A stretch of DNA of 27,187 nt from a virus. This document shows, one piece after another, positions 1,738 through 21,127 of this stretch (positions are counted from its first letter, which is position 1; each line of letters opens with the position of its first letter). The notes below the pieces were generated by a model. The model was not told the DNA's origin and made no database searches. It saw only the letters and a program-made list of their open reading frames with translations. The position numbers and the translations under genes are program-made. The DNA is taken from the IMG/VR virus record IMGVR_UViG_3300030012_003198, positions 1 through 27,187 of that record. One strand, written 5' to 3'.

Positions 1738-3522
1738 TTATTTTTTATAATTTGGATGATGACCATCATTGTCCATGTCTTTTGGTGGTTTCTTGGAATC
1801 TTTCCATCCTCTTGGTTTAGCCTCATATGTTTTAGGAATGCTTTCAACCTCAACAAAGTCCTTTATTTTATCTGATTTTTTTATGTATTTACCATTTGTT
1901 TTTTTCTTCAATCTATATAACTGCTCACTCCAATAATGTCCACAATTTACTCCTCCTTTAAATCTAAAAAGATCATATGGTTTTCCTTTATGTCCGAAAG
2001 ATTTATTTACTCCGCTTTTAGAGGCTGCATCAATATCCTCTATTCTATACACCATATTTCTTTGCATTAATGCTTTACAAAACTCTCTCGAGTTTCCGCT
2101 AGAATATTTTTCAGCATATTTATATCTAACTTTATAAAAACTTTTATCTAATACAGAAAAATCCCCTTTTCCAGTTTTTAAATTAGGAATAGACATTGCT
2201 ATTTTTTTTAAAAAACTTCTCTTTTCTTCTATTAATTGATTAGCCCAAGATTCAATATCTTTATTTTCATTAGAATATTCTCTTTCATCTACCAATTCCC
2301 ATTCATCATTTATTTCTTCACCATTTAAGTTTTCTAATATATCTAATGCGACATCATCAGAAAGCTCACTAGAAGTGTCTGAGGACATTTTTATACCTGT
2401 TTCTTGCTCTTTAGTTTCTTCATCTTCTATTTCTTCTACTTCAGTAAACTCTAAAGGTTGTAAAGTTTTAAAATATAAATTTAAAGAAATATCATTAACA
2501 GCTAATATTTCATAAAAAGAGTCTATTAATAATTCTTGGTAGTTTTTAATAACTATATTATCAAATAATAGAGATGCGGTTTTTATTTCGTCAGCATTAT
2601 TTCCTAAACCACTATTACCATCTTTTATACCTAATAATAAAGGTGAAGTAATTCTATGCGCTATAATTAATTTCTTTATACATTCATTTGATAAATATTC
2701 GTAATGATTTGGGGCATCATTTAAAGGTATATCGTCAATTGTTGTTTTACTTTCTGCATTATTATTAAAAGCTACAATTACTTTTTCACCTTGACTTCCT
2801 GTTAATTTGTTTAAAACATCAGATTTAACTTGTAATTGTTTCTCTCTATCAGGAACTCCGTTATTAAAGTTTACTACTTTAGTTCCGGAAAAACCACATT
2901 GAACTTCATTTATTAAATAATCAGCTACTTCTTCTTCTAGCTCTGCATACGCTAACCCACCTTGATAATCTACAGGAGCATAATAATCATAGCCAGATAC
3001 ATATCTTTTTATAATTATAACTTCTGATGTTTTTTTATTACCAAAACCAAACGCAGGAATTCTTTCAGGTTGTTCTGAGGGCTTTATTTTACTCCAGTTA
3101 TGATGATAATAATAAGCTTCAATTTCTCCCTTCTTGTTGCACTTTTCTGCTCTTAATGTTTGTCTTGGAAAATGTTCTGCTTTTATAACTTTCCCGTTTT
3201 TATAAATTATTTGCATACTTGCTTCACCTAATAACTTAAGATCTTGACAAGTTTTTCTAATATCTTTATTAGCAAATATAGAGCGCATTTGAGCATATTC
3301 ATCTGGTTTTTTATTTGAATCAGAAGCGTCTAATCCTTTTCCGTAAACCATATTAACAACACCATTTATAATAGCATTATTTGTGGCGCTACCATTATAT
3401 CTATCTATAATATATTGATAATAATTATTGTCATCACCATAATTTATCCAATCTTTATTTTTATTTTCAATTATTTTTGGTCTATTGTAGTTTGATAAAT
3501 TTAATATATGTAAATTGTCCAT
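1738..3522 (-). CDS. Portal protein with an added C-terminal Cys/His domain
   Basis: At 594 residues this is longer than a typical portal of 400-500. Residues 1-360 look like the portal core. The stretch around 285-335, with AHRITSPLLLGIKDG followed by GLGNNADEIKTASLLFDN, is the signature I know from flavobacterial phage portals. An acidic linker (about 361-415) leads to a basic C-terminal domain (420-594). That domain has Cys482 in SREFCKALM, a YRIEDIDAAS segment, and Cys527 and His529 in GGVNCGHYW. This pattern resembles the C-terminal half of Mu gpF-like minor head proteins, so portal and minor head functions may be fused. It forms the dodecameric DNA gate of the head. The start shares one base with the stop of the preceding gene (TAATG). 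Confidence 0.85.
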   Translation of the reverse strand: MDNLHILNLSNYNRPKIIENKNKDWINYGDDNNYYQYIIDRYNGSATNNAIINGVVNMVYGKGLDASDSNKKPDEYAQMRSIFANKDIRKTCQDLKLLGEASMQIIYKNGKVIKAEHFPRQTLRAEKCNKKGEIEAYYYHHNWSKIKPSEQPERIPAFGFGNKKTSEVIIIKRYVSGYDYYAPVDYQGGLAYAELEEEVADYLINEVQCGFSGTKVVNFNNGVPDREKQLQVKSDVLNKLTGSQGEKVIVAFNNNAESKTTIDDIPLNDAPNHYEYLSNECIKKLIIAHRITSPLLLGIKDGNSGLGNNADEIKTASLLFDNIVIKNYQELLIDSFYEILAVNDISLNLYFKTLQPLEFTEVEEIEDEETKEQETGIKMSSDTSSELSDDVALDILENLNGEEINDEWELVDEREYSNENKDIESWANQLIEEKRSFLKKIAMSIPNLKTGKGDFSVLDKSFYKVRYKYAEKYSSGNSREFCKALMQRNMVYRIEDIDAASKSGVNKSFGHKGKPYDLFRFKGGVNCGHYWSEQLYRLKKKTNGKYIKKSDKIKDFVEVESIPKTYEAKPRGWKDSKKPPKDMDNDGHHPNYKK

Positions 3523-6187: not shown

Positions 6188-6328
6188 TTATATTTTCCCT
6201 ATACCCTGTGCTTGATAACTACCATCACAACATTTTCTTGAATAAGTTAATTGGTCTTTACATAAACAACCACGTTTATTTGTTTTAGGACTAGTATAAT
6301 ATCTATTGTCCTCATATTTTTTTTTCAT
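6188..6328 (-). CDS. 46-aa Cys-rich protein of unknown function
   Basis: The frame starts at an ATG that overlaps the protease stop by 4 bases (ATGA), a strong sign of a coupled real gene. The 46-residue product has four Cys in a CxC...CC pattern (RGCLCKDQLTYSRKCCDGSY) and ends QAQGIGKI. The phrase YSRKCCDG..QAQGIG is one I recall from small proteins and fibre segments of Bacteroidetes phages. A knot or zinc site is possible. No function can be assigned. Confidence 0.65.
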   Translation of the reverse strand: MKKKYEDNRYYTSPKTNKRGCLCKDQLTYSRKCCDGSYQAQGIGKI

Positions 6329-7260
6329 CCTAATTCTTTTAATTTAGATTCACTCCATCTTTTAGCTGCTAAACCTCCCCATAAATAAAACGATATTGTC
6401 CCGCAAGCCTCATTATTAGAAGGATCAAAATATTCCTCAGCTCTTGATAAATAAGAATACATACGTTTTATAGTTTCTTTGCTTATTGGTTTACCTTGTG
6501 ATAATTGTTTTGCTCTAATCTTACCAACTTGTGTTGCACATTTATTATTTACCTTTTCATTTAATTCGAGTCCTTTTTTAGCATTGTTTTTTACAGATGT
6601 AGGATAATCAGAGTAAGATTCCATTATCATTTTCTTACCACTCTTTGTTCTTTTATCTTTGCTTATAATACCTTTTACCTGTGATAAAATTTCTTTCGCT
6701 TCTTCTTCTTCTATTTCTGAAAAATCATTAATTGGTTCATTTGGTCTTTCTAATTTATCAGCAAAATAACCCTCTATAGAAAATCCTTTTACCTTACCAG
6801 TTTTAACGAAATCATCCCAAACCTCATCATTGTTTACTTTTACAGATACCATCCAAGTTCCTATAGGTGCACTCAAATCATACTTTTTTGTTTTATCAAA
6901 TTTCTCATCTTCTACTATCCAAGATTCAACCACGGATAAACCTTGTAATGGTAACTTGTGTTCTAGTGTGGATTTATTTTGATTACCTCTCATTAAAAAC
7001 AATTCACTAGCTTTTTTTACTGTTTTTTTAGAAAAATAAATATAATATTCCTTATCGTTATTTTTTCTATAAATAGGTTTGTTAGGAATTAAAGCTGCTC
7101 CCATAAGTATTTTCTTTTCTGAATCTACTTGGGCTAATTTTAATTCTTGATTTTTTAATGCAATAAAATCTTCTTCTATTGCTGGATTCTCAACAACTGA
7201 AATTGCTTGAATGCCAGAAAACTCGTCGTTTTCGTCTATAAAAAGTTCTATAATGTCCAT
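6325..7260 (-). CDS. XkdF-like prohead protease with C-terminal extension
   Basis: Residues 1-170 fit the XkdF-type phage serine protease (Peptidase_S78_2, HK97 protease superfamily). Features are ILMGAALIPNKPIYR at 51-65, the His of TLEHK at residue 101, VVESWIVED at 110-118, and the Ser in VKGFSIEGYF at residue 161. It would cleave scaffold and capsid N-termini during prohead maturation. Residues 212-311 form a second domain starting ESYSDYPTSVKNNAKKGLEL and ending SESKLKELG, which I associate with Bacteroidetes phage head proteins and whose role is unknown. The gene lies just before the scaffold and capsid genes and is coupled to the 46-aa gene by an ATGA overlap. Confidence 0.85.
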   Translation of the reverse strand: MDIIELFIDENDEFSGIQAISVVENPAIEEDFIALKNQELKLAQVDSEKKILMGAALIPNKPIYRKNNDKEYYIYFSKKTVKKASELFLMRGNQNKSTLEHKLPLQGLSVVESWIVEDEKFDKTKKYDLSAPIGTWMVSVKVNNDEVWDDFVKTGKVKGFSIEGYFADKLERPNEPINDFSEIEEEEAKEILSQVKGIISKDKRTKSGKKMIMESYSDYPTSVKNNAKKGLELNEKVNNKCATQVGKIRAKQLSQGKPISKETIKRMYSYLSRAEEYFDPSNNEACGTISFYLWGGLAAKRWSESKLKELG

Positions 7261-7294
7261 ATATTAATAATAATTTTATTTATTTTTTGTTATA

Positions 7295-8974
7295 TTATCC
7301 AATAGTTGCACCATCTACAATATTTCTATCTAACTCTTGTGCTGTTGTCACATCATTACTTACTACAAATGCTTTTACAGGTTGTTGTTGATTACCCGCG
7401 ATTGCATCAGCTAATTGATCAGCTCCTGAAGAACCGACTACGTTAAATTGAGGAGGTGTAGAAATTGTAGGTGTAGAAGGAGAACTTGACCCAACTGATG
7501 GTGCTGATTTACCAGCTAAAGTAGGTAACTTAGTTGATGTTATTGCTTTAACCTGAGCCATACCACTTTTAATAGCCGCAGCAGCAGCAATTGCACCTAA
7601 TGCTGGACCAACTATAGGTATACCTGCCATAGATTTATATGAGTCAGTTGCTGATTGAAAAGTACTTATTGTTGCTTGACCTATAGCCGCTGCTTTTCCA
7701 GCTGCTGATTCTTCACCTAAAATAGTTGCCATATTTCCTAAAGTAGAATTAGCTATATCTACTTTTTCTTTACTTGTCATTTCTGACCATTTTATCTCAT
7801 TATTAGCATTTTCTTTATTATACTTATCTAAAGCATTATTTTTAGCTTTTTCTAATTGTTCTGTTGCTAAACCTTGTTCTTTTGCTAACCTTATTAATTG
7901 GTCATAATGTTCAATTGTTTTTTGTATTTCTAATGCTCTACGTTCATCCTCTGTAACAGCTTCGGCATCTCTAATTTTTAATTTCAAATTAAAAAGATCT
8001 ATTTCTGCTTGTTTTTTCTTATCATCATCCTCTTTTTTCTTATCATCTATAATTCTTTGTGCTTCATCTTCATCAGCCTTTAACTTATCATCTATCGCTT
8101 TTTTAGCAGCCGCCTCCTCAGCTTTAAATGCAATAATCTGTGATGTTACTTCTTTTTGTTTAGTTAACTTAGCAGTTTCCAACTGTATCAATTCTGCTTC
8201 TAATCTCGCTTCATCTTCAAGATCTTCTTTAGTTGATTCTGATAATGAATTCTCTAATTTTCTTGCTTCTAACCTTAGTTTTGCAGCTTCAATTTCTTTA
8301 TTTGTTATATCCTCCTCTACTCTAGCAGCTTCCTGCAAAAAACCAATTCTCTCTTGTACTGTAAATTTTTCTTTATTTATAGATTGTTCTAATAACTCAG
8401 CTCTTCTTCTATCTGATTTTGCTCTTTCAACCTGTAATTCTCTCTCTGCTTTATCTGCTTTAGCTCTCATATCGGACAACTCTCCTGCTATAGCTATTTC
8501 TTTACGAGTCTCTTCTCCAAAGTTTTTAATACCTTCAGTTACTTTAGCTATAGAATCTGCAGCTTCATTAAAATTACCTGTAACAAATGACATTATTGCA
8601 TTACCAAAATTACCAAGTATATCAGTTACGTTTCCAATAATAACACTAGTTTGATTTAACCATTTAGTAAATCTGTTTTGACCAGCTTCAGAATTAGTTA
8701 ACGCTGTTTGTATTGCTCCTATAGCTAAAACAAAAGCACCAATACCTGTAGCTAATAATGCGCCTTTTAATGTGAATAAACTTTTAATTGCTCCTTTTAC
8801 ACCATTTACAACACTTTTAAATCCTGAAATTAATCCTCCAGTCATTTTATCACCGGCATCAGTAATATTATCTAAGTTTTCGTTAGTATTACTTAATTCC
8901 TTATTTAAATTATCAACCTGCTTCTCGGCATCTTTACTTTTTACGTCAATATCAATTACTACTTTTTCAGCCAT
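7295..8974 (-). CDS. Tail tape measure protein
   Basis: The protein has 559 residues with a long charged coiled coil over about 165-400 (repeated Glu/Lys/Arg/Ala). A hydrophobic segment lies near 70-95 (LLATGIGAFVLAIGAIQTAL) and a second Ala/Ile/Gly-rich hydrophobic region at about 430-475. This combination marks tape measure proteins, which set tail length and help DNA cross the inner membrane. The C-terminus (FVVSNDVTTAQELDRNIVDG) matches an ending I know from Bacteroidetes phage tape measures. By length it implies a short tail. It comes before the tail tube gene rather than after it, which is unusual. Confidence 0.85.
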   Translation of the reverse strand: MAEKVVIDIDVKSKDAEKQVDNLNKELSNTNENLDNITDAGDKMTGGLISGFKSVVNGVKGAIKSLFTLKGALLATGIGAFVLAIGAIQTALTNSEAGQNRFTKWLNQTSVIIGNVTDILGNFGNAIMSFVTGNFNEAADSIAKVTEGIKNFGEETRKEIAIAGELSDMRAKADKAERELQVERAKSDRRRAELLEQSINKEKFTVQERIGFLQEAARVEEDITNKEIEAAKLRLEARKLENSLSESTKEDLEDEARLEAELIQLETAKLTKQKEVTSQIIAFKAEEAAAKKAIDDKLKADEDEAQRIIDDKKKEDDDKKKQAEIDLFNLKLKIRDAEAVTEDERRALEIQKTIEHYDQLIRLAKEQGLATEQLEKAKNNALDKYNKENANNEIKWSEMTSKEKVDIANSTLGNMATILGEESAAGKAAAIGQATISTFQSATDSYKSMAGIPIVGPALGAIAAAAAIKSGMAQVKAITSTKLPTLAGKSAPSVGSSSPSTPTISTPPQFNVVGSSGADQLADAIAGNQQQPVKAFVVSNDVTTAQELDRNIVDGATIG

Positions 8975-9105
8975 TTTATTTCTTTTTTAATTTGATTATA
9001 TGCCTCGTTTAACGTCATAGGTAGTTTATATTTACCTTTTGCTATTTTAATATTTTCGGTTTTAGCTTCTGTAATAGCTAATAAATCTAAAATGTTTTGT
9101 ATCAT
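8959..9105 (-). CDS. 48-aa protein encoded just before the tape measure
   Basis: The ATG overlaps the stop of the preceding tail gene by 4 bases (ATGA), and the stop lies 16 bases inside the tape measure gene. Both junctions support a real coupled gene. The product begins MIQNILDLLAITEAKTEN, is Lys-rich and helical, and has no membrane segment. The slot before a tape measure often holds tail assembly chaperones, but this protein is too short to call as one. Confidence 0.6.
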   Translation of the reverse strand: MIQNILDLLAITEAKTENIKIAKGKYKLPMTLNEAYNQIKKEIKWLKK

Positions 9106-11168
9106 ACTTCGTTTAGTAATTCTACATTACTTTCACCTGTTTTTAGGTTAGTTGTAATGCTATTTATTTTATATTTTCTATTGTTTATAATAAATCTATC
9201 AGCAAGAGTATAGTTTCTTAAAATTTTAAGTGGTATAAATGCTTTATATTTTGATATTCTTCTTTTTATACTAAACACATCACTTATATATGTTTTATAA
9301 TAATCATCAAATAATGTATCTGTAAACAAACCATCTCCAGTATATTCGTTTAGTTCAGCATTGTAATGTATGTTTATTTTACTTGTACCTGATGCAAGTG
9401 CTAAACTATTAGAAGGAATATAGTAATCATCAATATCACTTAAACTTGAAACCTCATCATTTAAAAATCTAATTTGATCTTGATTAGTTTGTAGTATAGG
9501 ATAAAACAATAATGGTTCTCCAATATAAGGATCATCATTATCATCTACACTCCAACCAACCTGTATTGTTTTTTGTGTTGTAGTATTGCCATCGTGTAAC
9601 CTTTCAAACTTCATATGTTCAAAAGGAGCTTCAACTGTGTATATACCACCATCTAAATTTTCTCCTGCATCAGCATTGTACTTTAATGTTCCCCATCCTA
9701 AACCTGCATTGCTTAATTGTTCGTGTTGTAATGCTAATTTAGTCCCTAATCCTTTATACTTAAATTCTATTTCTCTATATGGTAAAGCAATGTTTACGTT
9801 ACTTGATGTAACATCAACAAATTCACTAATATCAAAGTTATTACCACCACTATAAAAAGTATCTAATGTTTGTACTTTGATCTTTCCATCATCTTGTACA
9901 AAAGCCGTAAGATTAAATAACTTAAATAACCCTGTAAGAAAATCTACTATTTTCATTGTAGGTATTTGTTTACTTGGTAAAAATTCAAATACTGCTGCTA
10001 CTGTAAATTGTGTTACATTAAAAGTATGTGATTCTGGAACTTGCAGATCTGACATATCCCAACTAACTGCGTTTTCTACTCCTGTTTCTCCAAATGTAAA
10101 TTCCTCTGTTACTTTTAATAATACTTTGTAAGTTCCATTAGGTAAATCCATATCTAACTGTAAATCACTATTTTCTGCACTGCCTGTTGCGAATGTAGAA
10201 CCATCTCTCGTAACCTCCACTTCATATCTGCTTGTTTCTGAGCTGTTTGGTCGTATAGTTAAAGAACTTGTGATTTTATTTGCACCTGTTAAACCTGATA
10301 CTGTTATTTCTTCTTCAACTGATAACACATTTGTCATTGTTGAATCTAATCCAAAATTCACATATTGCTCATATTCTAAAACTTGGTTGGGATCATTAAC
10401 ATCTCCTTTTTTTCTGTGTAGCCACATATACAAACCATAATAAGCACTATTAGAGGTGTTAAAGAAATCAGTTGTGAATTCAATACCACTATATTGTTGC
10501 TCTATTGCTTTTATAATTAAATGTACTCTTAAAGCATATTTTAAATCAGCATAGTAAACACCGTGAAAATGTATTCCACCTGTTCCAGAATGAGGATATA
10601 AATTACCATTTAGTGCAACCTCATTACCTGTACTATCATAAAACAATCTTTTAGTATGTGATATTAAAGGAACTAATAATGCTTTATTATAAGTGACTGA
10701 ATCAACTACAATATCATATCCTGTTGTTAATCCTGTTAATACACTTGCAGCACTATAAGGTTTTTTAAAATTATCTAACCAATTTAATGCCTGTAATGTA
10801 TCATCTCCAAATATGTCTTTTAGTTCTACTGCATTACCAAAAAAAGTAACTTTATAAGCATAAGGTTTATTATTCTTTAGATCAACACCTTCAAGTTTTA
10901 TCTTCCCATCCTCAAAAGGTAAATAATTGAGTTCTATAGTAGCACTTTTCTTAATTCTACCATCAAAACCATTTACAATATCATAATTATAATAATGTTT
11001 AAAAATCTTGTTATTGTCTTTTGAAGCTGGTAATGAAAATGTTTTAGTAAAGTTTGTAAATACTTTAGCTATATCTTTTATATTTTGGATTGTTTGTGTA
11101 AGTGAAACAGACTCATCTTTAAACATATCCACCCTATTACCTTCAATATATAATTGAATGTTTTGCAT
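9102..11168 (-). CDS. Large tail/baseplate protein
   Basis: This is a 688-residue protein. The N-terminal region (residues 1-70) reads VDMFKDESVSLTQTIQNIKD then TKTFSLPASKDNNKIFKHYY. That pattern is conserved in a tail protein family next to the tape measure in Bacteroidetes phages. The middle (about 270-380) looks like an immunoglobulin-type or beta-sandwich insertion with alternating Thr/Val. The end (RRISKYKAFIPLKILRNYTL and onward) is again beta-rich. A baseplate hub or distal tail role is likely from position and style, but the particular subunit is not resolved. It joins its upstream neighbour by a TAATG junction and the 48-aa gene by ATGA. Confidence 0.65.
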   Translation of the reverse strand: MQNIQLYIEGNRVDMFKDESVSLTQTIQNIKDIAKVFTNFTKTFSLPASKDNNKIFKHYYNYDIVNGFDGRIKKSATIELNYLPFEDGKIKLEGVDLKNNKPYAYKVTFFGNAVELKDIFGDDTLQALNWLDNFKKPYSAASVLTGLTTGYDIVVDSVTYNKALLVPLISHTKRLFYDSTGNEVALNGNLYPHSGTGGIHFHGVYYADLKYALRVHLIIKAIEQQYSGIEFTTDFFNTSNSAYYGLYMWLHRKKGDVNDPNQVLEYEQYVNFGLDSTMTNVLSVEEEITVSGLTGANKITSSLTIRPNSSETSRYEVEVTRDGSTFATGSAENSDLQLDMDLPNGTYKVLLKVTEEFTFGETGVENAVSWDMSDLQVPESHTFNVTQFTVAAVFEFLPSKQIPTMKIVDFLTGLFKLFNLTAFVQDDGKIKVQTLDTFYSGGNNFDISEFVDVTSSNVNIALPYREIEFKYKGLGTKLALQHEQLSNAGLGWGTLKYNADAGENLDGGIYTVEAPFEHMKFERLHDGNTTTQKTIQVGWSVDDNDDPYIGEPLLFYPILQTNQDQIRFLNDEVSSLSDIDDYYIPSNSLALASGTSKINIHYNAELNEYTGDGLFTDTLFDDYYKTYISDVFSIKRRISKYKAFIPLKILRNYTLADRFIINNRKYKINSITTNLKTGESNVELLNEV

Positions 11169-12538
11169 TATCTAATATCATTTATTTTATTAAAAGCATA
11201 TTCGAAGTCAATTGTGTAATTTATTAATCTATCATTTACTGACTTTTTATATTGTAAACTTTTAGTATTTAGAGTTATAGGATTTACAGTAGAACCATCA
11301 TATACCCATACCTGTTCACTAAATAATAGTTGTTTCATTATTTCATTGAAACTCTCATCTATATATCCTGTATTCATTGTTATAGATTCTTTTCCTGTAA
11401 CATGAAATTGTCTTATTTGATGCTTCTCATTACTATAAGTAGGATCGTTTACGAAGTCCATTAAGTTTCTTTTAAAAGAATCTGAATTAGTATTTACACT
11501 TGTTACAGATTTTTTGTGAAATGGCATAATTTGTAAAGCTCCATATTTGTTATAAAATATAACTTCTAAATAATCAAATTTAGGTTCGCATATCTCTTCA
11601 AGTGTTAATGTAACCGATTGCACAAAGTTAGTGGGACTTGTTTTAGTACTTGCAACAGTTATAACATCACCGGTTTGTAATGTTGTCGTTGGTGTAACTC
11701 TAATATATATTATTTTTTGTTTTGAATCTGTACTATCAGATATTGTTATGTCACTTAAAGTATTCCCCCAAGCTACATCATATAAATTCCAAAAATCCTC
11801 TACTTGATTCCAAAATACATTTGCACCTCCACCAGTTGTAAAGGATATAGTACCTTCTGGTTCTGCAAATACTGGAAATATAATATCTCTACCTTGTTTA
11901 AAATATATCTTAGTATTTGATTGTAAGTATTGAGGAGTAAAGTTTGGAGTACCTTTTAAATTATAATTCTCACTACTTGACATTATATCATTCTTTAGAG
12001 ATAATTGTGTGTTACTATCAATACCTGTAATTGTTGTGCTTGTACTATCAGTTGTATTTTCTATAGTATCTCCGATAGATGCTGTTTGTAGAAACAATTG
12101 CCCACTATCTATTAATTTATATGCAGAAGCACCAGTAGTTGTAGAACTAACAATAGTGTTTATTGGATTTGTTGATGTTCTTGGATTTACCCCATCTTCA
12201 AAATAACCATATCCATCAATTCCTAAATAATCAAGATTTTGTGTTTCACTTCCTGATGATTTTGTTAATGTAATATCAGCTTCTACCCATACAGTATCAG
12301 TAGCATATGATTCGTATTCAGTAACTATAAAATCTCTAATTAATTCAGTCACTTCATATATAACATAATTATTTGTTCCTATAATGTTTTTTGTTATTGT
12401 ATATTGAGCTGATGCAGGTTTGTCTGTTGTAAAAGTTCCACTATAAATATATAAACTCATTGATGCAGATACTAAAGTGCCTGATGTAGGTTTTACTTTT
12501 ATATAATATGGACTTCTTGTATTAATTATTGTGCTCAT
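11168..12538 (-). CDS. Tail protein, beta-rich
   Basis: The protein has 456 residues, is Thr/Ser-rich and appears all-beta. The N-terminus reads NTRSPYYIKVKPTSGTLVSA. Near residues 317-345 lies CEPKFDYLEVIFYNKYGALQ, a stretch I associate with a conserved tail protein that pairs with the gene downstream in flavobacterial phages. There is no signal peptide or membrane segment. The start overlaps the preceding stop as ATGA and the stop overlaps the next start as TAATG, so it is translated within the tail operon. It is probably part of the tail tip; the exact subunit is not known. Confidence 0.6.
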   Translation of the reverse strand: MSTIINTRSPYYIKVKPTSGTLVSASMSLYIYSGTFTTDKPASAQYTITKNIIGTNNYVIYEVTELIRDFIVTEYESYATDTVWVEADITLTKSSGSETQNLDYLGIDGYGYFEDGVNPRTSTNPINTIVSSTTTGASAYKLIDSGQLFLQTASIGDTIENTTDSTSTTITGIDSNTQLSLKNDIMSSSENYNLKGTPNFTPQYLQSNTKIYFKQGRDIIFPVFAEPEGTISFTTGGGANVFWNQVEDFWNLYDVAWGNTLSDITISDSTDSKQKIIYIRVTPTTTLQTGDVITVASTKTSPTNFVQSVTLTLEEICEPKFDYLEVIFYNKYGALQIMPFHKKSVTSVNTNSDSFKRNLMDFVNDPTYSNEKHQIRQFHVTGKESITMNTGYIDESFNEIMKQLLFSEQVWVYDGSTVNPITLNTKSLQYKKSVNDRLINYTIDFEYAFNKINDIR

Positions 12539-13074
12539 CTTAGTGGTTCAATTGTAATATTAATAAAATCTTTTGCAAATGCTTTTTCCATTTCTTTAGG
12601 TAATCTTTTAAATGCTTGCTCAAAAGGTTTAGTTAAAAAAAAGGTAGGTTTCATTCCCTGAGCAAATATAGATTTTTGCAAAATATATCCTATAGCTTCA
12701 TAATTCCCTTTTTTAAATCTTCCTTTTTCATCTCTTAATCTAAAATTCCTTTGTTTTGCCCATTGACGTATGAAATTAACAGGTGGTTTTTTATTAGTAT
12801 ATTTATAAGGACTATTTGGAGCTTTTTGTTCACCATCTTTTACTAAATTTGGATTTGCACCTTTAACACCTTGATCTACAAACTCACCATATTCATCCAT
12901 TAATATATCTAAATAAATACCTTCATTTGTTTTTTTTATTTTATAATCTAAAGAATCATACAGTCCTTTTGTGTTATTTATTTTCTTTTTTGTTAAATTG
13001 CTTCTTGATTGTTGTATTACATATTTAGCAAATTCTTTTAACGATTCTGTTGTTTGTTTTATATCCATTAGCAT
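12535..13074 (-). CDS. HK97 gp10-like neck/tail completion protein
   Basis: The 179-residue basic protein carries YGEFVDQGVKG at about residues 62-72, the typical phrase of the HK97 gp10-like family that links head and tail. Two start codons are possible: ATG at 13074 and ATG at 13068. The second gives a TAATG overlap with the preceding stop, a junction used repeatedly in this genome, so it may be the true start (177 residues). The following gene starts inside its stop codon (ATGA). Context with a tail terminator-like gene directly upstream supports the neck role. Confidence 0.65.
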   Translation of the reverse strand: MLMDIKQTTESLKEFAKYVIQQSRSNLTKKKINNTKGLYDSLDYKIKKTNEGIYLDILMDEYGEFVDQGVKGANPNLVKDGEQKAPNSPYKYTNKKPPVNFIRQWAKQRNFRLRDEKGRFKKGNYEAIGYILQKSIFAQGMKPTFFLTKPFEQAFKRLPKEMEKAFAKDFINITIEPLR

Positions 13075-13523
13075 CTTGTCATATCATTTTTAACTAATAT
13101 GTTAAATGTTGCTGTCCAACCAGCTAATTTATTTTCAAATCTATCAACAAATGGCTCGCATGATACATTGCCTTCTAATTGATATAAATCACTATATAAA
13201 TCTCCTCTTTTTAATAATGTCGTTAACCTAGTAGCTACAGCAAGTTGAGTATTCAAAACATCCTGCTCATTATCATTTCCTAAAAATTTACTAGTACGTA
13301 CTTTCTTACTTTCATCAACTATATCCATAAATAAAACACTAATACTAAAATTAATAACTTTATCATCTATGTTAGTATTATTAACAACGATGTGTGATAA
13401 AGGAAATATATTTTGTTTGTTTAAATCAACATCATCTATATTACCGTATGTTACAGTGTTAACGAATGGTTCGCTTTCTAATGTTTCCTTTATTTTGGTT
13501 GTTATATCGTAAAATCCTGTCAT
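13068..13523 (-). CDS. Tail terminator-like neck protein
   Basis: This is a 151-residue alpha/beta protein. FPLSHIVVNNTNIDDKVINF at about 40-59 and a C-terminal strand pair (AGWTATFNILVKND) suggest the small ferredoxin-like fold of tail terminators (gpU family). No sequence motif proves this. It lies between the frameshifted chaperone-like gene and the gp10-like gene, as expected for a neck protein. Its ATG shares one base with the TAA that ends the -1 frame of the upstream gene, which is an important clue that the -1 frame is translated. Confidence 0.55.
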   Translation of the reverse strand: MTGFYDITTKIKETLESEPFVNTVTYGNIDDVDLNKQNIFPLSHIVVNNTNIDDKVINFSISVLFMDIVDESKKVRTSKFLGNDNEQDVLNTQLAVATRLTTLLKRGDLYSDLYQLEGNVSCEPFVDRFENKLAGWTATFNILVKNDMTRC

Positions 13524-13777
13524 TATCTAAATTTTGATTTTATTTTTTTTTGTTCTAATTCAATTTTTTCTTTTTCAAATGATAAATACATTAAGCATTC
13601 GTGTATTGATAATTCGGTAACTTTATTAAATTGTCTAATGTCTCCTTTAGCAAGTCCATATATTGATTGATACCAACCCCACTTCGAATTAAATTGTGAT
13701 CCAATATCGTATGTATTTTCTGATTGTTCAACGAATAATTCAGAGTAGCTTTTAATAAGTCGTTGCCTAAATGATAA
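13523..13777 (-). CDS. -1 frame extension of the tail chaperone-like gene (84 codons)
   Basis: This frame has no plausible start of its own: a TAG lies just upstream of the slippery run, and the only ATG comes near its end. Entered by a -1 slip at 13777-13783, it adds 84 residues to the first 161 of the upstream gene, giving a 245-residue product. It reads like a real protein, for example SKWGWYQSIYGLAKGDIRQF and SIHECLMYLSFEKEKIELEQ, a pattern I remember as a separate or fused gene in Bacteroidetes phage tail clusters. Its TAA stop shares one base with the next ATG (TAATG), exactly like neighbouring gene joints. The alternative is a lost T in the nine-T run, which would merge both parts into one ordinary gene. 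Confidence 0.65.
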   Translation of the reverse strand, partial: LSFRQRLIKSYSELFVEQSENTYDIGSQFNSKWGWYQSIYGLAKGDIRQFNKVTELSIHECLMYLSFEKEKIELEQKKIKSKFR

Positions 13778-14259
13778 AAAAAAATTATGGAACTAAGAAC
13801 CGCATCCATTGGCATATTCTTCATAAAATGCGGATTATCAACATTATATTTTTCAATTGAATATTTATTATTAAATTTACTTATAATTGGTCTATATAAT
13901 ACATTCATTGCTTTATGTAAATCTTGCCAATTACTTAAATTAATATCTAAATCAATATATTCTCCAAAAGAAATTTCATCAAGATTATTAATAAAACCAT
14001 ACTCCTTACCATTCATATAAAATGTTTTTACCAAATTAGGCTCCCTATTGAACATCTTATTAAGTAAATTAGTTATTGTTTTTATATCATTTAGTTTCAT
14101 TAATAAAACATCTTTAATTTTAACTTTACAAAAGATCTCAATCATCTTCTGATTTATAAAATTACTTTTTTCGTTATTTTGATCTATTTTTAAAAACTTT
14201 TGATATTGGCCTAAAGTTATCTCATTAAGCTCTGTTGGTACGTTAACATTTAATCTCAT
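13591..14259 (-). CDS. Tail assembly chaperone-like protein, zero-frame product
   Basis: This is a 222-residue protein starting MRLNVNVPTELNEITLGQYQ. That pattern, with YGFINNLDEISFGEYIDLD at about 87-105, I recall from a conserved tail gene of Bacteroidetes phages. Codons 160-161 are TTT TTT inside a U_UUU_UUU heptamer. About one tenth of products could shift to -1 and end as a 245-residue form, as lambda G/GT does; that fraction is not measurable here. The zero frame goes on for another 61 codons without a stop, so 13591-13777 would be read in two frames. A chaperone that wraps the tape measure before tail assembly is the best guess. It lies four genes before the tape measure rather than next to it. 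Confidence 0.6.
   Translation of the reverse strand: MRLNVNVPTELNEITLGQYQKFLKIDQNNEKSNFINQKMIEIFCKVKIKDVLLMKLNDIKTITNLLNKMFNREPNLVKTFYMNGKEYGFINNLDEISFGEYIDLDINLSNWQDLHKAMNVLYRPIISKFNNKYSIEKYNVDNPHFMKNMPMDAVLSSIIFFYHLGNDLLKATLNYSLNNQKIHTILDHNLIRSGVGINQYMDLLKETLDNLIKLPNYQYTNA
13777..13783 (-). promoter_or_regulatory. -1 ribosomal frameshift slippery heptamer (T TTT TTT)
   Basis: On the minus strand the zero-frame codons read ATT TTT TTT TAT, which gives the canonical X XXY YYZ heptamer T TTT TTT. Eleven bases downstream the 6-base arms CAACGA (13765-13760) and TCGTTG (13734-13729) could pair as a stimulatory stem, though the 25-base loop makes it weak. The -1 frame that follows is open for 84 codons. 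Confidence 0.6.
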
Positions 14260-14300: not shown

Positions 14301-14579
14301 TTACATTAATTTATTACCAAATCTTCTAGCGTAGTAATGTGCGTATATTTCTTGTAATGCAGTAGTTAGTTCTTTCTCTTGTGTGTATTTTTTTTTTCCT
14401 ATTAAGATCTTACCATCACAGTTAATTTCTATTTTAACATATGGTTTTCTTCTTCCACTTGGAGATTTATAATTTTCTTTTAATGGTATTGGATAAGCTT
14501 TTATATTTTTTTCAAAACACCACCTCATTTCTTTAAAAGTTCCGTCATCAACCCATTTATCATTATTTCTAAATCTCAT
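14301..14579 (-). CDS. 92-aa conserved-looking protein of unknown function
   Basis: This is a basic protein with a beta-rich middle (RKPYVKIEINCDGKILIGKK) and a helical end with many aromatics (ALQEIYAHYYARRFGNK). No catalytic or metal-binding motif is visible. The start lies 11 bases inside the previous small gene. It is the last member of a run of five very small genes between the large terminase and the tail operon. I do not recognise it. Such genes in this slot are often accessory anti-host or regulatory proteins, but nothing here shows that. Confidence 0.6.
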   Translation of the reverse strand: MRFRNNDKWVDDGTFKEMRWCFEKNIKAYPIPLKENYKSPSGRRKPYVKIEINCDGKILIGKKKYTQEKELTTALQEIYAHYYARRFGNKLM

Positions 14580-19091: not shown

Positions 19092-19122
19092 AATATAATA
19101 AACATTTTATAAACAAAAAAAT
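19092..19122 (-). promoter_or_regulatory. 31-bp repeat promoter, copy B
   Basis: This is identical over 31 bases to the copies at 15284-15314 and 21590-21620. It abuts the stop codon of the hydroxymethylase-like gene and lies 22 bases before the ATG at 19070. The boxes read TTTG, 16 bases, TATATT, here extended to TATATTGG. It likely starts the transcript carrying MazG, exonuclease, DnaA-like and terminase genes. Confidence 0.7.
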
Positions 19123-19769
19123 TATTTAATATTTTTTTTATAATGTCTTTCGTATATATGTAAGTTTTGCACAAAATGAACATAATAACCTTGCTGTGAT
19201 TTTAAACTATTAGCTACTAATTCGTGTAATTTTAAAAAACAATATGCATCATTACAAAACCCAAACCACAAATCATTACTCCTCATCACAACAGTCATGT
19301 GTAATTTTTCTGAATCTTGAGTATAATAAAATTGTATAGACAAAGTACAAGGTGTGTCTTTACTATAATCAGAATGCTCTTTACCATCATAAATACTTAT
19401 AACTGCCTTTCTTGAATATTTATCTTTTTTTAATTCTTTTATAACATATTGCAATTGATTATTTCTAGACCATTGCCAACCATAATTACTATTAACATAA
19501 CCTCTTTCGTCCATATGGTTATACCATATTTTAGCAACTTTAGCTATTTCCATAGCTGATCTATTTTTAGATAAATACCAATTCCATTCTAATTCAGCAT
19601 AATCTTGTTTAAATTTCCTATAAGAAGTTTTAACAATTTTCTCTTCAGTATCAACAATAGTAAATATTTGATTATATAGAGCTTTTGTTCCATTATCACC
19701 TGGTAATTGTGAATCTAATCTATCATAATAAAACTCAAAAGCGTCCGTTACTGTATTAAATTGCCACAT
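19122..19769 (-). CDS. dCMP hydroxymethylase-like enzyme (thymidylate synthase fold)
   Basis: The 215-residue protein has thymidylate synthase fold motifs: NSNYGWQW (93-100), catalytic Cys141 in DTPCTLSIQF, the phosphate-binding VMRSND (161-166) and NLHIYERHY (202-210). The key segment FGFCND (169-174) has Asp174 four residues after Gly170. Thymidylate synthases put Asn there for dUMP; T4 gp42 dCMP hydroxymethylase has Asp (FGFRND, Asp179, Cys148). The residues around it, and the RSND and YSRH-like ends, also match gp42 as I recall it. It would turn dCMP to 5-hydroxymethyl-dCMP using methylene-THF. The start overlaps the glycosyltransferase gene by 14 bases. A dUMP hydroxymethylase or unusual thymidylate synthase is the main alternative. 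Confidence 0.8.
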   Translation of the reverse strand: MWQFNTVTDAFEFYYDRLDSQLPGDNGTKALYNQIFTIVDTEEKIVKTSYRKFKQDYAELEWNWYLSKNRSAMEIAKVAKIWYNHMDERGYVNSNYGWQWSRNNQLQYVIKELKKDKYSRKAVISIYDGKEHSDYSKDTPCTLSIQFYYTQDSEKLHMTVVMRSNDLWFGFCNDAYCFLKLHELVANSLKSQQGYYVHFVQNLHIYERHYKKNIK

Positions 19770-20727
19770 GTCTTAAATATTCTTTATGTTGTTTTTCTAT
19801 TAATTCTTTACTATACATTTTAGATAACTTTAATACGTCTTCTTTTTTTTCTACATATAATATATCTTTTAATGTTTTATCTTGTATAAGATCTTTATTA
19901 GGATCATACTCAATTGGTATTGCCGCTAAACAATTAGATGCTAAAGTTTCATAAAACCTAAATGTAATTACATTATCCTCATGTTCTTTATCTGCTAATA
20001 TTAAACTAACCTTACATTCATTTAACTTATTCAATAACTCCTCGTGTTTTAATTTTTTAATAAAAGTACATTCTATTTTGTTTGTTTTATAACCAATAAG
20101 TAAATTATCTAAACTATTGAACATGTATTTTCTTAATTTATTTTCCCTATAACTACCTCTTTTATCGCCATAATAAACTATATTAAATTTTTTTTCTTGT
20201 TCTATATATTTAGGTTGTTGTATTTTATTTTTAAATATTTTTTTAAAATAATCAAAATAAACAAAACTATCATATTTATTATCATTATAAAATTTATTTA
20301 AATCTTTACCAGGAAATAAATAAGTAGCATTTTCTAATAAACTTTCAAAACCTTCTACGTGTTTTTTGGATAATACATTAAATCTTTCATATAAAACTAG
20401 TGCAGCATTAATAGGTTTTATCCTTGGGTCATTACATAATATTCCAAGCTTATTTTTATATAAAGATATTTTTTTAATTTTCTCGAAAGTATCATCACTT
20501 AATACTCCACCAAAAAAATTAGGTTGTGATAATTGCAAAAATATTTTATTAAAATTGTTTAAATCAACATTATTAATATCTATATATTTTTTTTCATTAT
20601 TATTATTTCTATTTTTTTTACCTATATATAATAAATTATATTTTTTAGATAAATAAGTAGCCTCTAACCCTGAATGATTATTCATATTAGCTTGTACATT
20701 ACTAAATAACCTAGTTATTCCTTTCAT
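19756..20727 (-). CDS. T4 Bgt-like DNA beta-glycosyltransferase
   Basis: This 323-residue GT-B protein resembles T4 beta-glucosyltransferase (351 aa) along its length, as I recall that sequence. NFFGG at 70-74 matches NFFGG in Bgt. CNDPRIKP puts Asp100 at the place of the Bgt catalytic base Asp100. NIVYYGDKRGSYRENK at 182-197 matches IYGGSFRSGQRESK, with Arg194 at the donor-phosphate Arg. EDNVITFRFYETLAS at 250-264 matches NDNFITLRVWETMAS, with Glu260 at the donor-binding Glu272. It should transfer a sugar to hydroxymethylated bases in finished DNA. It lies between the nucleotidyltransferase and hydroxymethylase genes, overlapping both. The donor sugar is not known. Confidence 0.8.
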   Translation of the reverse strand: MKGITRLFSNVQANMNNHSGLEATYLSKKYNLLYIGKKNRNNNNEKKYIDINNVDLNNFNKIFLQLSQPNFFGGVLSDDTFEKIKKISLYKNKLGILCNDPRIKPINAALVLYERFNVLSKKHVEGFESLLENATYLFPGKDLNKFYNDNKYDSFVYFDYFKKIFKNKIQQPKYIEQEKKFNIVYYGDKRGSYRENKLRKYMFNSLDNLLIGYKTNKIECTFIKKLKHEELLNKLNECKVSLILADKEHEDNVITFRFYETLASNCLAAIPIEYDPNKDLIQDKTLKDILYVEKKEDVLKLSKMYSKELIEKQHKEYLRHVAI

Positions 20728-21127
20728 TCAATATTTGTTTTCTAAGTTTTGTTGTCGAATAATTATGTTTTCTACAATTGTAATATATTTCTATATTATT
20801 TTTTTGGCAAAAATCTTTTCCTGTAAAATTTTTCTCTTTATATTCTTCACCTATTATTCTTATATTAATATTATTTGTTTTTAATATATCTAATAAATCT
20901 TTTTCAGTAACATACGGAAATATTTCATCTATAAATTTACATGCTTTTAATTGAATATATCTCTCAACTATTGTTTGTATTGGTTTATTTTTTTCTGCTC
21001 TATCGATAGAAGGATCTATTTGTAAACCAGCAATTAAGTAATCACATTTTGTCCTTGCCTCTTCTAACATTTTTATATGACCAGCGTGAAAAAGATCAAA
21101 ACAACTAAATGTAATACCTACTTTCAT
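20711..21127 (-). CDS. HxGH-type nucleotidyltransferase (TagD/HldE-C-like)
   Basis: The 138-residue single-domain protein has the HIGH-type motif HAGH (14-17, in FDLFHAGHIKML), ERYIQLKACKFIDE at 55-68, and the second motif YSTTKLRKQI (123-132) expected for binding the nucleotide. The family (PF01467-like) includes glycerol-3-phosphate cytidylyltransferase and ADP-heptose or other sugar-phosphate nucleotidyltransferases. It would join CTP or ATP to a phosphorylated sugar or polyol. Lying between a MazG-like gene and a DNA glycosyltransferase and overlapping both (4 and 17 bases), it is a candidate maker of the glycosyl donor. A surface polysaccharide role is the alternative. Confidence 0.85.
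   Translation of the reverse strand: MKVGITFSCFDLFHAGHIKMLEEARTKCDYLIAGLQIDPSIDRAEKNKPIQTIVERYIQLKACKFIDEIFPYVTEKDLLDILKTNNINIRIIGEEYKEKNFTGKDFCQKNNIEIYYNCRKHNYSTTKLRKQILNERNN

Follow-up and report, generated by a model that had tools for sequence, protein, structure and literature searches.

A nine-T site for a probable programmed -1 frame switch in a candidate tail assembly chaperone gene of Bacteroidetes phages

Background

The tape measure protein is the expected client of the tail assembly chaperone, and in lambda, G/GT frameshifting sets the protein ratio that the tail needs. In chaperone pairs of the G/GT type, the two products occur in a fixed ratio, bind the tape measure protein and are absent from virions. 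Transcriptional slippage, for its part, leaves mRNAs with mixed run lengths. G/GT frameshifting is well known in long-tailed phages; the G/GT cases covered in the available review are all ribosomal, and sequence similarity within this group of chaperones is low (PMC5009743). For transcriptional slippage, the threshold is an A/T homopolymer of about 8-9 or more (PMC1088944, PMC3711429). Nine is also the length at which many bacterial genomes start to avoid A/T runs in coding sequence, an avoidance that has been read as selection against transcriptional slippage (PMC1088944).

Here we describe a gene with the two-frame layout of this kind in a window of 27,187 nucleotides (positions 1 to 27,187 of the IMG/VR virus record IMGVR_UViG_3300030012_003198; "the window" denotes this entire stretch), together with its relatives in a large family of phages.

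Results

The gene and the neighbors that matter for its interpretation are arranged in the window as follows.

13591..14259, minus strand: zero-frame ORF, the "G-like" product, 222 aa including a 61-codon tail past the slip site
13776..13784, minus strand: slip site, nine T (nine U in the mRNA), zero-frame codons ATT TTT TTT TAT
13777-13783, minus strand: in-phase heptamer T TTT TTT inside the T9 run
13523..13777, minus strand: -1 frame extension, the "T-like" part of a 245-aa fusion, 84 codons plus TAA
13591..13776, minus strand: stretch that apparently encodes the zero-frame tail and the -1 domain at once
13068..13523, minus strand: next gene, 151 aa, phrog_30964, its start overlapping the -1 stop (TAATG)
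7295..8974, minus strand: tail length tape measure protein, by PHROG tape measure families (best E 6.9e-14)

The first-pass annotation, which was made from the letters of the window alone, had placed the heptamer at 13783-13777 within the codons ATT TTT TTT TAT, with a -1 frame that has a stop just before the site and no start, is open for 84 codons and ends in a TAATG junction, and with a zero frame that stays open for 61 codons past the site; all of these coordinates and counts were confirmed. The stop in question is a TAG located five codons ahead of the slip site, and the ATG of the next gene, which shares TAATG with the end of the -1 frame, is at 13523. The 222-aa zero-frame product and the 245-aa fused product would have 161 residues in common and different C-termini. 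A small neighboring ORF, 14579-14301, carries ten A's in its mRNA (14388-14397 of the window), another possible slippage site.

A search of IMG/VR with the zero-frame protein retrieved 80 first-round loci with a homologous head, all 80 of which combine nine or ten T, placed in the same register, with a -1 ORF; this ORF is of similar length in these relatives and encodes a motif resembling [KRN]W[GS]W[YF], which is KWGWY in the window. The -1 domain is 81-94 aa long across the relatives, and in one locus (L056), the -1 ORF, at 64 codons, is shorter than those of the other relatives. Further scans from both parts of the gene, with HMM matches to the head and to the -1 domain, expanded the set to 444 loci: the frame difference is exactly -1 in every one of these, and in none are the two parts found within one ORF. 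The relatives that belong to genome assemblies (n=5) are all in Bacteroidetes metagenome-assembled genomes (Winogradskyella, Flavobacteriaceae), and an isolated phage, Nonlabens phage P12024S, encodes a -1 domain with 27% identity and has a T9 run at the same place; the hosts of this phage family are marine and freshwater Bacteroidetes. These comparative data show that selection has preserved the two-frame layout, the T run and each of the alternative C-termini throughout a large family of phages of Bacteroidetes.

These observations bear on three explanations that require no frame switch during expression. An independent -1 gene, initiated at a start codon of its own, is suggested by the annotation of P12024S, in which gene 39 begins at an internal ATG, but that start would remove conserved residues of the domain; moreover, the -1 open stretch of the window contains no ATG, GTG or TTG up to the WGWY motif, and 49 of the 80 relatives have no start between the slip site and the motif. 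Internal initiation, for which the -1 frame offers no usable start, was accordingly rejected, and we assign it a negligible probability. An equally slight chance attaches to the reading that the gene is in truth one 245-aa ORF, either broken here or misrepresented through errors of sequencing or assembly. Homopolymers are error-prone, and several database proteins (A0A516L611, A0A516L5A8, A0A6J5SVK3 and others) match the models of both the head and the -1 domain; against this stand the frame difference in all 444 loci from many samples, the presence of the layout in an isolated phage and the zero-frame tail that is kept open. The first-pass annotation had named a run of ten T instead of nine as the outcome of resequencing that would restore a single gene, an alternative that fails because an independent contig (L001), which differs from the window at 5 of 2737 bases, has T9 as well. 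Thus, sequencing error and pseudogene formation were rejected by the comparative data. The third explanation, phase variation at the DNA level, in which replication slippage at T9 would yield phage populations with mixed T9 and T10 genomes, is hardly more plausible: T9 runs are mutable in general, but no fused-frame copy was detected among the 444 loci, the T10 and T12 sites all retain the -1 layout, and a chaperone pair would presumably need both forms in every infection; this explanation was likewise rejected. We consider it nearly certain that a programmed -1 frame switch makes two versions of the protein, as the first-pass annotation had proposed.

The suggestion that both frames code past the slip site was likewise borne out. 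When random synonymous codons were placed under each -1 protein (34 representatives), a zero frame open for as long as that observed had a mean p of 0.016 per sequence, the highest p being 0.209. In close pairs, synonymous-codon conservation of the -1 frame is 0.81-0.90 in the overlap, compared to 0.75 after the overlap and 0.64-0.70 in the zero-only head; in distant pairs, conservation in the overlap (0.60) exceeds that in the head (0.50) but not that in the part after the overlap. Because the zero-frame tail, too, looks to be under selection, coding of the overlap in both frames is strongly supported. Some of the resemblance between tails is a by-product of the -1 domain encoded in the same stretch. 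Among the relatives, the tail past the slip site is usually about 53-90 codons long; it is reduced to about 25 codons in P12024S and to about 16 in another relative (L209) that retains the -1 domain. Given these short tails next to a -1 domain that stays, the -1 domain is the constant part of the gene, and the long zero-frame tail is a property of most lineages.

The length of the T run, which the first-pass annotation had singled out for comparison in related phages, is at least nine in 354 of the 355 distinct sites (T9 in 300, T10 in 51, T12 in three and T8 in one), these counts being uncorrected for relatedness except via the tree described below. The stronger statement that all runs have at least nine T was rejected on account of the single T8 lineage, GGT TTT TTT TAC (L340, L342), which retains the heptamer; a run of at least eight with an in-phase T TTT TTT is found at all 355 sites. 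The layout alone cannot separate the ribosome from the polymerase because any T9 contains this heptamer. One reading is a classical programmed -1 ribosomal frameshift, in which the Phe-tRNAs in the P and A sites would slip together on U_UUU_UUU and the run would be kept by the encoded residues. The universal in-phase heptamer, which has the X XXY YYZ form and is present at the T8 site as well, is compatible with this reading, as are the precedents of lambda (GGGAAAG) and P2 (TTTTTTG) and the hydrophobic residues that flank the slip site in both frames; the requirement for hydrophobic residues in both frames accounts for part of the run length.

Three features of the sites weigh against the ribosomal reading. 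First, at 159 of the 207 dereplicated sites, the second Phe codon could end in C with both proteins unchanged, leaving the heptamer U UUU UUC. C is permitted at that position of the heptamer (PMC10885494), but all 159 sites have T and none has C, with TTC comprising 22% of the Phe codons in the same ORFs. Second, a change of register is accompanied by restoration of the run length: where the middle T is lost from the codon preceding the two Phe codons, the codon that follows starts with TT at 22 of 23 sites (most of these 23 came from a pattern scan that leaves the following codon free), compared to only 41 of the 328 sites at which the middle T is intact. Third, the 80 nt downstream of the run show no RNA structure over that of shuffled sequences (mean z of +0.2 for 90 sites); a stimulatory structure there is common at -1 ribosomal frameshift sites but is not a requirement. 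A weaker slip from UUC could cover the missing UUC but not the restored run length; overall, part of the run pattern may reflect such weaker slippage or residue preferences. Given the lack of silent C, the compensation at the ends of the run and the unstructured downstream region, we lean toward the run length being a selected feature. Against the polymerase, it can be argued that every run of nine holds the in-phase heptamer, that the T8 lineage keeps it, that the G/GT cases in the review (PMC5009743) are ribosomal throughout and that register switches are few, about six parsimony changes, one of them the T8 exception, on a single fast tree in which some branches are poorly supported.

Elsewhere in these loci, runs of at least nine T in other ORFs of the same strand are scarce, with two observed against 17.4 expected; together with the avoidance of such runs in bacterial genomes, this counts on the side of the polymerase. 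Two long ORFs carry TTT TTT TTT on the coding strand, namely, in L463 near position 752 (possibly in reverse-complement coordinates) and in L418 near position 3120.

The zero-frame protein matches the PHROG family phrog_32199 (E 3e-21), and in an HMM-HMM comparison with hhalign, its head is a remote homolog of gp10 of Flavobacterium phage 6H (E 8.2e-5). Neither the lambda proteins G and T nor P2 E gave a match, and Pfam, at its cut-off, has no family for either part. The family phrog_166, "tail protein", is a weak match for 9 of the 34 heads; a link to T4 through this family was dropped because T4 gp26 and gp51 belong to phrog_150. In the structural model of the zero-frame protein, confidence is good up to about residue 180 and poor thereafter. 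The slip site falls inside the last confident helix (151-180), so that the two products would continue this helix differently. The AlphaFold model of the -1 domain is all-helical and of modest confidence (mean pLDDT 73.5, pTM 0.43). The best viral fold matches are uncharacterized phage proteins, including the gene 38 product of P12024S (E 2.5e-16), and a weak Foldseek match (E 0.016, prob 0.99) carries the annotation "tail assembly chaperone". Searches of the PDB produced nothing useful, with a best E of 1.7 by Foldseek and best Z scores by VIA-align of 3.3 (zero-frame model) and 2.7 (-1 domain). Six BFVD entries (A0A516L611, A0A516L5A8, A0A6J5SVK3, A0A6J7WDG4, A0A6J7XA66 and A0A6J5MY57) are each hit by the head model as well as by the -1 domain model, which raises the possibility of phages in which the fusion is a single-frame product.

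The gene belongs to the tail module and is on the same strand as the tape measure gene, with four genes in between; it is not directly upstream of the tape measure gene, a position that is usual but not strictly defining in the G/GT group. The order of genes in the region 6325-12538 of the window is unusual in that the tape measure gene comes after two large genes of unknown function and before a prohead protease-like gene (Pfam Peptidase_S78_2, E 5e-14). By eye, thymidylate synthase-like and cytidylyltransferase-like ORFs, possible metabolic genes, are seen at 19122-19769 and 20711-21127.

Discussion

From the remote similarity to 6H gp10, the weak fold match and the setting among tail genes, and with no match to lambda or P2, we infer that the gene product is probably a tail assembly chaperone; the chaperone-like label of the first-pass annotation is likely to be correct on these grounds. 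The same annotation invoked the mechanism of the lambda-like siphoviruses. The resemblance in layout stands, but ribosomal slippage is one of two candidate mechanisms: transcriptional slippage would account no less well for the uninterrupted run of at least nine, the compensation at its ends and the unstructured sequence downstream.

We marginally favor RNA polymerase, over the ribosome, as the main agent of the slip. The polymerase would stutter on T9 and add one U in a fraction of the transcripts, such that the 245-aa product results from the switch to -1 at T9 and the 222-aa product from the zero frame; tandem tRNA slippage of the ribosome at U_UUU_UUU may contribute alongside. Ribosomal frameshifting as the primary mechanism is a substantial possibility, to which we nevertheless give less than an even chance. 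By analogy with lambda G/GT, the shared part of the two products would hold the tape measure protein, and the helical domain of the -1 frame would engage another tail component at low copy number. The full proposition, that this phage family makes its chaperone pair via T9 transcriptional slippage, not ribosomal frameshifting, with a dual-coded stretch of about 53-90 codons, is tentative, and we put it at slightly short of even.

If the polymerase is indeed the slipper, the ratio of the two proteins can be set at transcription, and this would be the case in a widespread group of phages from the environment in which these genes carry no functional annotation. In addition, the gene provides an extended dual-coded stretch, and gene calls in many contigs could be corrected by the rule of a run of at least nine T and a WGWY domain in the -1 frame.

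Comparison with known systems

Like the window gene, lambda G/GT has a long common part, a -1 switch near the 3' end, a second domain without its own start and a fusion that is the minority product, as it presumably is here. Unlike the window gene, lambda slips at GGGAAAG and its zero frame ends six codons on, as opposed to T9 and usually about 53-90 codons; lambda T adjoins the tape measure gene, whereas here four genes intervene, and the lambda proteins have no sequence match to the window gene (hhalign prob 0.5%). P2 E/E+E' also switches to -1 at a T-rich site (TTTTTTG), but this is a six-T run followed by a zero-frame tail of seven codons, and there is, again, no sequence match.

The closest counterpart from an isolated phage consists of genes 38 and 39 of P12024S, with a homologous head (E 4e-18), the -1 domain and the same T9 site; this system differs in its short zero-frame tail and in being annotated as two hypothetical genes, with no recoding noted. 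The two genes (L081 9001-9792) look like one frame-switched gene split by annotation; the end of gene 39 is overlapped by gene 40, which is encoded on the other strand and could be spurious. Gp10 of Flavobacterium phage 6H resembles the window gene in being a remote head homolog upstream of an annotated tape measure gene and in the open but unannotated stretch that comes after it in a different frame, but it lacks T9. This stretch (L270, NC_021867, 10047-10352), about 305 nt after gp10, is protein-like in two other frames, which suggests either recoding or a sequence error where this chaperone-like tail gene ends.

In the literature searched, we found no phage tail case of transcriptional slippage and no description of the frame switch of this phage family, which is not proof of absence. 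Against the G/GT background, the apparent novelty lies in three features together: the sequence is unrelated, the T9 site seems to be under selection for its run length, and the dual-coded overlap usually extends over 53-90 codons. With respect to the run itself, the nearest parallels are the Thermus dnaX gene and certain IS elements, in which a homopolymer of nine A/T likewise leads to two products by a change of frame (PMC1088944), but these are cellular or IS genes, whereas the gene described here lies in the tail module of a phage.
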